Notes under the pieces: model-generated | The model's database searches: none | What the model saw: only the letters and a program-made list of their open reading frames with translations | What the model was told of the DNA's origin: nothing | Program-made: the position numbers and the translations under genes | Shown here: positions 47,947 through 50,739 of the stretch, one piece after another | Position numbering within the stretch: position 1 is the stretch's first letter | Layout: the number at the start of each line of letters is the position of its first letter | Assembly (NCBI GenBank): GCA_017591395.1 | Contig: WEDG01003452.1 | Span: 1 to 64,000 of the forward strand | Length of the DNA: 64,000 nt | Direction: 5' to 3' | From: Schistocephalus solidus | Taxonomy: Eukaryota; Platyhelminthes; Cestoda; Diphyllobothriidea; Diphyllobothriidae

Positions 47947-47970
47947 GGAATGGAACCGACAAAGACAAGA

Positions 47971-48015
47971 GACCGGAATGGCCATTTCTGGCTTATTAGC
48001 CGTCATCAGCCAGTC
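47971..48015 (-). ncRNA. Hammerhead ribozyme, array unit 1
   Basis: Minus strand order: GACTGG (stem I), CTGATGA, C + GGC-TAATAA-GCC + A (stem II), GAAA, TGGCCATT, CCGGTC (stem I partner, six pairs including one G-U). All core bases are present. The predicted cut follows ATT, before CCGGTC. ATGGCCAT is palindromic, so a stable stem III would need two molecules, as in other short-stem-III type I hammerheads. Confidence 0.75.
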
Positions 48016-48273
48016 ATACCCAATCCCAAGTGTAGCACACCTGGGATTCGAAACCCTGACCTTTGGTATTTGAGTCGAACGCTCTACCCATTTTGAGCCA
48101 CGGGCTCGTTGTTTTTGTCGGTTGTGATCGGGAATATGATGATAGTGTGGGGCTCACCGATCTGCTTAAGGAACATGCATGTTCCGTTGTGCCCTGAGGC
48201 TCAGACTAGAGCCCTCGCAGGCGGTCGCATAGCGACGTAGCATATGATGGAATGGAACCGACAGAACAAGGGA

Positions 48274-48316
48274 GACCGGAATGGCCATTTCTGACGATAG
48301 CCGTCATCAGCCAGTC
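48274..48316 (-). ncRNA. Hammerhead ribozyme, array unit 2 (shortened stem-loop II)
   Basis: Core CTGATGA and GAAA and stem I GACTGG/CCGGTC are intact. The stem II region is two bases shorter and rearranged (CGGCTATCGTCA), still able to pair GGC with GTC around TATC. Confidence 0.6.
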
Positions 48317-48575
48317 ATACCCAATCCCAAGTGTGGCACACCTGGGATTCGAACCCACGACCTTTGGTATTTGAGTCGAACGCTCTACCATTTTGAGCCA
48401 CGGGCTCGTTGTTTTGTCGGTTGTGATCGGGAATATGATGATAGTGTGGGGCTCACCGATCTGCTTAAGGAACATGCATGTTCCGTTGTGCCCTGGAGCT
48501 CAGACTAGAGCCCTCGCAGGCGGTCGCATAGCGACGTGTAGCATATGATGGAATGGAACCGACAAAGACAAGGGA

Positions 48576-48620
48576 GACCGGAATGGCCATTTCTGGCTTA
48601 TTAGCCGTCATCAGCCAGTC
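48576..48620 (-). ncRNA. Hammerhead ribozyme, array unit 3
   Basis: Identical in core and stems to unit 1: GACTGG, CTGATGA, GGC/GCC stem II, GAAA, TGGCCATT, CCGGTC. Confidence 0.75.
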
Positions 48621-49074
48621 ATACCCAATCCCAAGTGTGCGGCTCACCGATCGGCTTAAGGAAAATTTACGTTCCGTTGTGCCTTGGAACTCCGACAAGA
48701 GCCCTCACAGGAGGTCGCATGGTGACGTGTAGCATATGTTGTAAATGTGGAACCGACAAAGACAAGGTAGACCGGAATGGCCATTTCTGGCTTATTAGCC
48801 GTCATCAATCAGCCATACCCAACCCAGGTGCAAGGGCGCCTGAGGTTCGAACTCGCAACCTGTTGGGAGGAAGTCAAACGCTCTACCCACTGCGCCGCCA
48901 GCTCGTTGTATCGCCATTTTTGAGCGTGAATATTAGGTATGTTAAGAAGCACTCACGGATAGGTTACAGGACTCACTCGTCCCATTGTGCCTTGGGGCTT
49001 ACTCTCGAGCCCCGCCAGCAGACGCAAGGCAGCTAAGATAAAAGGCAGAATAACATGACCAAAAAAGACAAGGG

Positions 49075-49119
49075 GACTGGAATGGCCATTTCTGGCTTAT
49101 TAACCATCATCAGCCAGCC
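49075..49119 (-). ncRNA. Hammerhead ribozyme, array unit 5
   Basis: GGCTGG, CTGATGA, stem II TGGT-TAATA-AGCCA in which the first pair becomes T-A, GAAA, TGGCCATT, CCAGTC. It has the best closed stem II of the array. Confidence 0.75.
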
Positions 49120-49380
49120 ATACCCAACCCAGGCGCTGCGGTGCCCAAGGTTCGAACTCGCGACCTGTTGGGCAGAAGTCTAACGCTTTACCTCCTGCGC
49201 CACGAGCTCGTTGTCTTGCCAGTTTCGATTGGGAATATTAGGTTTGTTAAGAAGCGCTCACCGATCGGTTACAGGACTCAGTCATCCCATTGTGCCTTGG
49301 GGCTAACTCTCGTGCCCCGACAGCAGCCGCAAGGCAGCTAAGACAAAAGGCAGAATAAGATGACCAACAAAGACAACAGA

Positions 49381-49425
49381 GATTGGAATGGCCATTTCTG
49401 GCTTATTAACCGTCATCAGCCAGCC
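49381..49425 (-). ncRNA. Hammerhead ribozyme, array unit 6
   Basis: Core CTGATGA and GAAA are intact. The stem I partner is CCAATC, giving one A-C mismatch at the fourth pair. Stem II is GGT/GCC with a G-U pair. Confidence 0.65.
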
Positions 49426-49990
49426 ATACCCAAACCCAGGTACAAGTGCGCCTGAGGTTCGAACTCGCAACCTGTTGGGAGGAAGTCAAACGCTCTACCC
49501 ACTGCGCTACCAGCTCGTTGTCTCGCCAGTTTTGAGCGGGAATATTAGGTATGTTAAGAAGCACTCACGGATAGGTTACAGGACTCACTCGTCCCATTGT
49601 GCCTTGGGGCTTACCTTCGAGCCCCGCCAGCAGACGCAAGGCAGCTAAGATAAAAGGCAAATAACATGACCAAAAAAGACAAGGGGACTGGAATGGCCAT
49701 TTCTGGCTTATTAACCGTCATAAGCCAGCCATACCCAACCCAGGCGCTGCGGTGCCCAAGGTTCGAAATCGCGACCTGTTGGGCAGAAGTCTAACGCTTT
49801 ACCTCCTGCGCCACGAGCTCGTTGTCTTGCCAGTTCCGATTGGGAATATTAGGTATGTTAGAGAGCGCTCACCGATCGGTTTACAGGACTCACTCGTCCC
49901 ATTGTGCCTTGGGGCTTACTCTCAAGCCCCGCCAGCAGACGCAAGGCAGCTAAGATAAAAGGCAGAATAACATGCCCAAAATAACAAGGG

Positions 49991-50035
49991 GACTGGAATG
50001 GCCATTTCTGGCTTATTAACCGTCATCAGCCAGCC
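49991..50035 (-). ncRNA. Hammerhead ribozyme, array unit 8
   Basis: GGCTGG, CTGATGA, GGT/GCC stem II, GAAA, TGGCCATT, CCAGTC. All core residues are present. Confidence 0.72.
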
Positions 50036-50739
50036 ATACCCAACCCAGGCGCTGCGGTGCCCATGATTCGAAATCGCGACCTGTTGGGCAGAAGTCTAAG
50101 GCTTTACCTCCTGCGCCACGAGCTCGTTGTCTTGCCAGTTTCGATTGGGAATATTAGGTATGTTAAGAAGCGCTCACCGATCGGTTACAGGACTCACTCG
50201 TCCCATTGTGCCTTGGGGCTAACTCTCGTGCCCCGATAGCAGCCGCAAGGCAGCTAAGATAAAAGGCAGAATAACATGACCAACAAAGACAACAGAGACT
50301 GGAATGGCCATTTCTGGCTTATTAACCGTCATAAGCCAGCCATACCCAAACCCAGGCACTGCGGCGCCTGAGGTTCAAACTCACAACCTGTTAGGAGGAA
50401 GTCAAACGCTCTACCCACTGCGTGCCCAGCTCGTTGTCTCGCCAGTTTTGATTGGGAATATTAGGTATGGTAAGAAGCGCTCACGGATCGGTACAGGACT
50501 CACTCGTCCCATTGTGCCTTGGGGCCTACTTTCGAGCCCCGCCAGTAGACGCAAGGCAGCTTATGATAAAGGCAGAATAACATGACCGACAAAGACAAGG
50601 GAGACTGGAATGACCCTTTCTGGCTTATTAGCCATAATCAGCCAGCTATACCCAACCCCAGGCGCTGCGGTGCCCGAGGCAAGTTGATATAGTGAAGGAA
50701 GGGAACTCGTAAGCAACGAAAGTTTTATTCGTATTTTTC

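Follow-up and report, generated by a model that had tools for sequence, protein, structure and literature searches.

A tRNA-headed tandem repeat with a block of probable hammerhead ribozyme descent in the tapeworm Schistocephalus solidus

The described systems closest in design to the repeat reported here come from blood flukes. Sm-alpha of Schistosoma is a short interspersed nuclear element (SINE)-like repeat that is similar to tRNA-Gln, bears a hammerhead ribozyme and has an estimated copy number of >10,000; of the 2,368 predictions of tRNA-Gln-TTG in S. mansoni, 2,342 were assigned to SINEs that resemble it (PMC2770079). Its hammerhead belongs to type I, a W-element of 335 bp is strongly similar to it, and four S. 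mansoni W-element families contain hammerhead-like sequences, some of which cleave while others are mutated in the core (PMC8490949). Hammerheads of S. mansoni mucin genes carry boxes A and B of RNA polymerase III (Pol III) promoters (PMC2576457). Here we describe a tandem array of ten related units in a 64,000-nt stretch of the diphyllobothriid tapeworm Schistocephalus solidus (assembly GCA_017591395.1, contig WEDG01003452.1, positions 1 to 64,000 of the forward strand; hereafter the window). We assign a probability of roughly 0.7 to the reading that these units belong to a tRNA-headed, SINE-like retroposon family whose conserved 45-nt block descends from a type I hammerhead, an estimate that covers the family and the descent of its block and not ribozyme activity; the hammerhead descent of the block, taken by itself, is somewhat more likely. 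Likened by design and from published descriptions, the family appears to be the tapeworm counterpart of Sm-alpha and Sj-alpha, sharing with them the tRNA-like character and the type I hammerhead, and with the related W-elements a short stem III and many mutated copies; it differs in residing in a tapeworm rather than a fluke and in holding T-tracts inside its 305-type units. Its novelty lies in the lineage of the host and in the variant sequence; the design itself is already known from Sm-alpha.

The array occupies positions 47947 to 50690 of the minus strand and consists of ten head-to-tail units with a repeat of about 299/305 bp, which we number from the high end (U1) to the low end (U10). 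A preliminary description of the window had proposed the same strand and limits, and these were borne out by direct repeats, by Tandem Repeats Finder (period 305 over 50679-48752 and period 299 over 48639-47941) and by the low-side flank, a (TA)48 tract at 47850-47946 that lies directly at the array's 3′ end. This tract may be a tail left by the insertion, or a microsatellite that lies there by coincidence. U1-U7 are 305-type units (L) and U8-U10 are 299-type units (S), with U7 a hybrid of an L head and an S-like tail; U1, the first unit, is truncated at its start, and U7 and U8 are spaced by only 194 bp. Among six L units, pairwise identity reached 96% between U2 and U5 and 95% between U4 and U6, compared with 83-92% for the five adjacent pairs, so that similarity is no simple function of distance, a pattern suggesting that blocks of several units have been exchanged at the DNA level. 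In the tail of the S units (48160-48490, minus strand) there is a perfect 16-nt palindrome, GGAACATGCATGTTCC, whose L counterpart is the hairpin GGGAC-GAGTGA-GTCC; judged by eye, this is possibly a compensated hairpin.

A BLAST search of two units against the window identified seven further loci, mostly decayed, which we designate by their approximate position in kilobases. D28 (28426-28680, plus strand, ends approximate) resembles a monomer, in that a head, a block and a tail are all present; D54 (54124-54460, minus strand) contains tail, head and block, shows by eye the remnant of an earlier block at its high end, and looks like a relic dimer; D45 (45588-45676, plus strand) holds a block with an intact core that has lost one stem III pair. 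The remaining loci are D58 (57802-58054, plus strand; tail, linker, tRNA-like head and block), D57 (57286-57409, minus strand; head and block), D14 (14323-14352, minus strand; a block fragment) and D3 (2984-3093, minus strand; pieces of block and tail). Directly before D45, at 45515-45600 of the plus strand, lies a piece of the tail of this repeat, inverted and with an internal deletion, which suggests a template switch or an inversion at insertion. The monomer-like D28, the dimer-like D54 and the inverted tail at D45 are the leavings expected of a SINE-like element with occasional tandem copies. The family thus occurs as dispersed single and apparently dimeric copies and as this tandem array, which has also evolved by exchange between units.

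Nine of the ten array units carry a 45-nt block whose layout is that of the Rfam type I hammerhead model RF00163, and the tenth, U9, carries a 43-nt variant. Written as RNA, the block of U8 (48576-48620; all array blocks are on the minus strand) reads GACUGG-CUGAUGA-C-GGC-UAAUAA-GCC-A-GAA-AU-GGCC-AU-U-CCGGUC and matches the RF00163 consensus position by position (6, 7, 4<6>4, 3, 2<4>2, 1, 6; 45 in total); this geometry was read from the consensus printed with our positive control, which itself has a longer stem III. Most units do contain the parts listed in the preliminary description in the form given there, namely the stem I strands, a stem II of GGC/GCC or GGT/GCC closed by the loop TAATAA, GAAA, TGGCCATT and the partners of stem I; the exceptions are U1, with AAAGGGTCATT in place of TGGCCATT, U9, with an altered and shortened stem II loop, and U5, with CCAATC and one mismatch in stem I. 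In U2-U10 stem III comprises 2 bp closed by a palindromic GGCC loop, and the cleavage triplet is AUU, the predicted cut falling at ...CATT/CC. The CTGATGA motif, which had been ascribed to every unit, is intact in U3 (49991-50035), U5 (49381-49425), U6 (49075-49119), U8, U9 (48274-48316) and U10 (47971-48015). All invariant core bases are kept in these six of ten array units and in two of the seven dispersed copies, D45 and D3, the latter having an intact core but a lost stem I (1/6 pairs). With the geometry held fixed, an 11/11 core was accompanied by at least 11/12 pairs in four array units and by at least 10/12 pairs in five array units and D45, and nine array units had at least 10/11 core bases with at least 10/12 pairs. 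U6 is the sole unit with 11/11 core bases and 12/12 pairs.

Such matches are hardly to be expected by chance. A relaxed descriptor, fixed after the motif had been seen, found seven cores in the window (six in the array and one dispersed), compared with one site in 200 first-order Markov resamples of the window, or 0.005 per 64 kb. The 45-nt RF00163 geometry with 11/11 core bases and at least 10/12 pairs, for which the geometry came from Rfam and the pair threshold was picked after the data were seen, matched six times in the window (five array units and D45) and not once in 474,720,000 positions simulated from a first-order Markov model trained on the window outside the array, nor in 208,286 bases from 21 unrelated viral loci. 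The array units are related copies, so these matches are not independent of one another.

The block is also conserved beyond its surroundings. Between the L and S consensus sequences we counted 3 differences in the 45 positions of the motif and 96 in the remaining 261 (Fisher p = 2e-5), with 0/11 in the invariant core, which indicates that the motif was under constraint until the two subfamilies split. The first 66 nt from GTATG contain 5 L/S differences, and the conserved island reaches about 17 nt beyond stem I. The three motif differences all preserve hammerhead pairs (A/G opposite U, C/U opposite G, and A/G opposite U); they also spare the pairs of a competing hairpin described below, and therefore favour the hammerhead only mildly. 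When the 17 copies were submitted to RNAalifold, a single helix was returned, which consisted of hammerhead stem II plus one pair; it was weak (-3.1 kcal/mol) and included double changes in D28 and D14. The RF00163 geometry, the conserved island and this stem II helix together support the earlier proposal of an Sm-alpha-like, tRNA-headed tandem repeat of type I layout.

The competing fold is an imperfect hairpin of about 52 nt, CUGGCU(G/U)AU...AU(A)AGCCAG with outer pairs UAU/AUG, UGG/CCA and GGG/UCC, and it suggests another account of the block, as an RNA hairpin domain of a tRNA-SINE that binds reverse transcriptase or a protein, its likeness to a hammerhead being fortuitous. This hairpin is the minimum-energy fold in six of the ten array units (U2-U6 and U8, -22.1 to -26.8 kcal/mol) and in D45, lies 0.2 kcal/mol above the minimum in U10, and is 1.7-22.3 kcal/mol below the hammerhead across the array; minimum-energy z-scores were -3.2 to -4.9 in U2-U6, U8 and U10. 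The altered G5 of U2 and U4 makes it longer, and over the 17 copies 87.5% of its cells are paired, compared with 81.4% for the hammerhead. However, chance would almost never produce the exact hammerhead geometry together with its 11 invariant bases, RNAalifold yields stem II instead of the hairpin, and covariation within the hairpin fell below the shuffle mean, with 448 of 500 shuffles reaching its score. Moreover, other folds win in U1, U7 and U9 (z = -1.1 to -2.6), and folding energy is near random in the divergent copies D28 (z = +0.6), D14 and D57 (both -1.0), the values for D3, D54, D58 and D45 being -1.9 to -2.7. We therefore consider a fortuitous likeness unlikely and retain hammerhead descent.

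A tRNA-like head, which the preliminary description had placed in each unit, was located in eight of ten, being absent from the truncated U1 and from U8. The best is that of U9 (48342-48407, minus strand, with an exact B box starting at 48355), which scored 28.0 bits against RF00005 (gathering score 29), followed by U10 (48033-48107, minus strand; 18.6 bits); the other heads were not reported at E ≤ 10, among them that of U5 (49443-49516, minus strand, low end approximate), which contains an exact A box, TAGCGCAGTGG, starting at 49509. In the mechanism that we consider, the tRNA-like head would drive Pol III transcription, the hammerhead of intact copies would cut the transcript downstream of the head, and the RNA would be copied back by the enzyme of a long interspersed nuclear element (LINE), a LINE-like endonuclease frame being present in the window. 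The predicted cut lies 128-131 nt from the head start. Pol III usually terminates at runs of at least four T residues (T4), and the first such tract on the sense strand falls 143-168 nt after the head start in U2-U6 and 239 nt after it in U7; in U9 and U10, the two headed units of the 299-type, no such tract precedes the array end. The candidate terminator of U6 is a T6 tract at 49061-49066 (minus strand), 143 nt past the head start; the first tracts of its neighbors lie at 50264 (U2, T4), 49981 (U3, T4), 49677 (U4, T6) and 49348 (U5, T4), also on the minus strand. In five of the six headed 305-type units, the likely Pol III transcript would thus be about 145-170 nt long, ending in a T-tract shortly after the hammerhead, and its cleavage would give a head-plus-ribozyme RNA of about 129 nt and a short 3′ piece. 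Monomers or circles of about 305 nt, which had been predicted from Pol III transcription of the whole array, are unexpected in those units, and we rejected Pol III read-through for most 305-type units on the strength of their T-tracts; for the two headed 299-type units it is still plausible. Multimeric read-through to monomers or circles of about 300 nt would be plausible only for 299-type units or for RNA polymerase II transcripts. The mechanism first proposed therefore appears right in outline and overstated in detail.

Several observations weigh against the reading as a hammerhead-bearing tRNA-SINE family. An Rfam scan of the whole window at the gathering threshold returned no hammerhead family, nor did scans at E ≤ 10 of the array and of U6 and U8 as single units, a check that had been proposed for the hammerhead; no tRNA-like head attained the Rfam gathering score in the window or the array scan, so that the heads are tRNA-like by resemblance only. 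Rather than every unit holding a complete hammerhead, as had been claimed, four of ten have broken cores: U1 (50603-50647) reads CTGATTA, having lost G8, U2 (50297-50341) and U4 (49686-49730) read CTTATGA, having lost G5, and U7 (48770-48814) reads TTGATGA, having lost C3. The pair at 10.1-11.1, situated where CTGATGA meets the GGC/GCC stem, is C·A in eight of ten array units, a feature previously overlooked, and in six of seven dispersed copies (14 of 17 in all); U-A occurs only in U1, which additionally lacks G8, and in U6. The hammerhead is the minimum-energy fold in 0/17 copies, lying 5.9-22.3 kcal/mol above the minimum in the ten array units. When the hammerhead was taken as a whole, its covariation exceeded shuffles only mildly, 64 of 500 reaching its score. 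Within the six L units the core has drifted like the rest (3/66 and 129/1566 changes, p = 0.36), the whole motif being somewhat quieter (p = 0.008); there is no visible constraint on the core inside the present array, though it was constrained up to the subfamily split.

The silence of RF00163 may be explained in part by its consensus stem II, GUCC/GGAC, from which the tapeworm units, with GGC/GCC and a C·A base, depart. Of five viral loci picked as positive controls because they matched a hammerhead core pattern, the model detected one (L018, 39 bits), and this single control does fold as a hammerhead in the program that gave the fold energies above. The microRNA, pestivirus, small nucleolar RNA, SAM-VI and RAGATH rows returned by the Rfam scans scored far under their gathering thresholds and mostly lay on the TA tract or tracked the hairpin.

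Taken together, the broken cores, the prevalent C·A and the absence of extra core constraint within the L units could mean that the family descends from a hammerhead SINE whose ribozyme is now inactive throughout, with the array being satellite-like DNA produced by unequal crossing-over; the higher-order similarity of U2 with U5 and of U4 with U6 fits this account, which overlaps the favored reading and differs from it on activity. Against family-wide inactivity stand the undisturbed core and quiet motif between L and S, and U6, which satisfies the whole descriptor. We regard the two sides as nearly balanced, with inactivity falling a little short of an even bet. The pair at 10.1-11.1 is the most conserved after A15.1-U16.1, with U-U the best tolerated mismatch (Perreault et al., PMC3088659), and a U-U in that place, the base of helix II, is described for axolotl hammerheads (PMC7229834). 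The lower-energy rival folds make efficient hammerhead folding doubtful. That one or more of the array units cleave at a useful rate is, on balance, a possibility that we lean slightly against; a good number of copies seem damaged or liable to misfold, and ribozyme activity at this locus is doubtful.

A more active role is suggested by the metazoan non-long-terminal-repeat retrozymes (Cervera and de la Pena, 2020, PMC7229834), which share with the tapeworm units a tandem organization (repeats of about 170-400 nt), a type I hammerhead and a weak stem III. In that account, invertebrate retrozymes have a stem III of two pairs with a tetraloop, animal type I hammerheads in general have a weak stem III with a tetraloop that is palindromic in amphibians, and retrozyme-like repeats are mentioned in passing for platyhelminths, with tapeworms unnamed in the part consulted (PMC7229834). 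The array might accordingly be an active retrozyme whose multimers self-cleave to monomers of about 305 nt that are circularized and copied back, a scenario in keeping with the tandem units of about 300 bp bearing a type I motif and with the six monomers that are predicted to be 58-66% paired when folded as circles. However, the 305-type units contain the terminator-like T4-T6 tracts, the G+C content of the six units is 51-53% (45.8% for the whole window), above the <45-50% given for retrozymes (PMC7229834), a tRNA head is absent from the retrozyme description as far as that source was consulted, and the broken cores do not suit an active element. We consider an active retrozyme improbable, and continue with the tRNA-headed SINE.

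One further arrangement of the SINE transcript is a long shot. The RNA might have two states: Pol III would stop at the T-tract that closely follows the block, after which the hammerhead would remove the oligo-U end and leave a defined 3′ end, the hairpin (stronger in U2 and U4) holding the ribozyme off until refolding, so that the array would give a mixture of cutting and non-cutting RNAs, with the head lying inside an extended stem I closed by pairing between the linker, which is 5′ of the head, and the segment 3′ of the block. La protein would hold the oligo-U end of a Pol III transcript. For the long-range stem between linker and 3′ segment, whose boundaries were chosen after the S units had been seen, six of the 11 copies scored better than 474 or more of the 500 shuffles. 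Pairing was strong in U9 and U10 and moderate in U2, U5, D54 and D28; in U3, U4, U6, U7 and D58 it did not clearly exceed that of shuffles. The opposite strand pairs equally well or better in U9, U10, D58 and D54, and we treat this stem as a lead only.

Other tandem repeats with hammerheads have been described. The S. mansoni families W25.2 and W36.2 likewise consist of satellite-like units with minimal type I hammerheads, some copies being mutated in CUGANGA; in contrast to the tapeworm array, they are fluke W-chromosome families with autosomal copies, and candidates 1-3 of the five tested, which were autosomal, cleaved in vitro (PMC8490949). The pDo500 satellite of Dolichopoda cave crickets resembles the array in its tandem organization and in a hammerhead more conserved than the rest of the unit, but its core is rarely mutated and its compensatory changes include 10.1-11.1 (PMC2837043). 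SINEs are given as 1.24% of the Sparganum and 1.09% of the Spirometra genome, without family detail in the part of that source consulted (PMC8166898). Literature on hammerheads together with cestodes, tapeworms or Schistocephalus, consulted as titles and openings of abstracts in a partial collection, contained no cestode hammerhead SINE, and none was among the matches listed for the broader hammerhead literature in that collection. Exact motif patterns had 0 matches in viral and prokaryote contig collections, as expected for a repeat derived from a tapeworm and uninformative on other flatworms.

If the favored reading is correct, hammerhead-bearing tRNA-SINEs extend from blood flukes to tapeworms, and either the design predates the fluke-tapeworm split or elements of one kind acquired the ribozyme on two separate occasions. 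An array that naturally combines intact cores, C·A bases and copies lacking G5 would allow one to ask whether the ribozyme matters to the spread of the SINE. The locus also illustrates that a clear hammerhead layout can escape the standard covariance model.

The window contains several other features. A LINE-like fragment at 3725-4231 (plus strand) includes a frame that shares 90% identity with a Schistocephalus solidus endonuclease-domain protein, with Spirometra and Sparganum also represented among the best 120 of 752 matches, and a second, at 59845-60225 (plus strand), has the look of a reverse transcriptase by eye only; neither frame had a Pfam match. At lower coordinates than the array, exons of the CLUH (clustered mitochondria) gene were recognized at 12455-14197 (plus strand) from the Pfam domains CLU_N and CLU, and there are perhaps more at 32444-35610 (plus strand), where two weaker frames resembling tetratricopeptide repeats fall under the Pfam cut-off. 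A tRNA-Ser-like gene with anticodon ACT lies at 6401-6484 (plus strand), about 70 bp after a (TTCCTTTTAC)n tract; this anticodon is unusual, and the gene could be another tRNA-derived repeat head.

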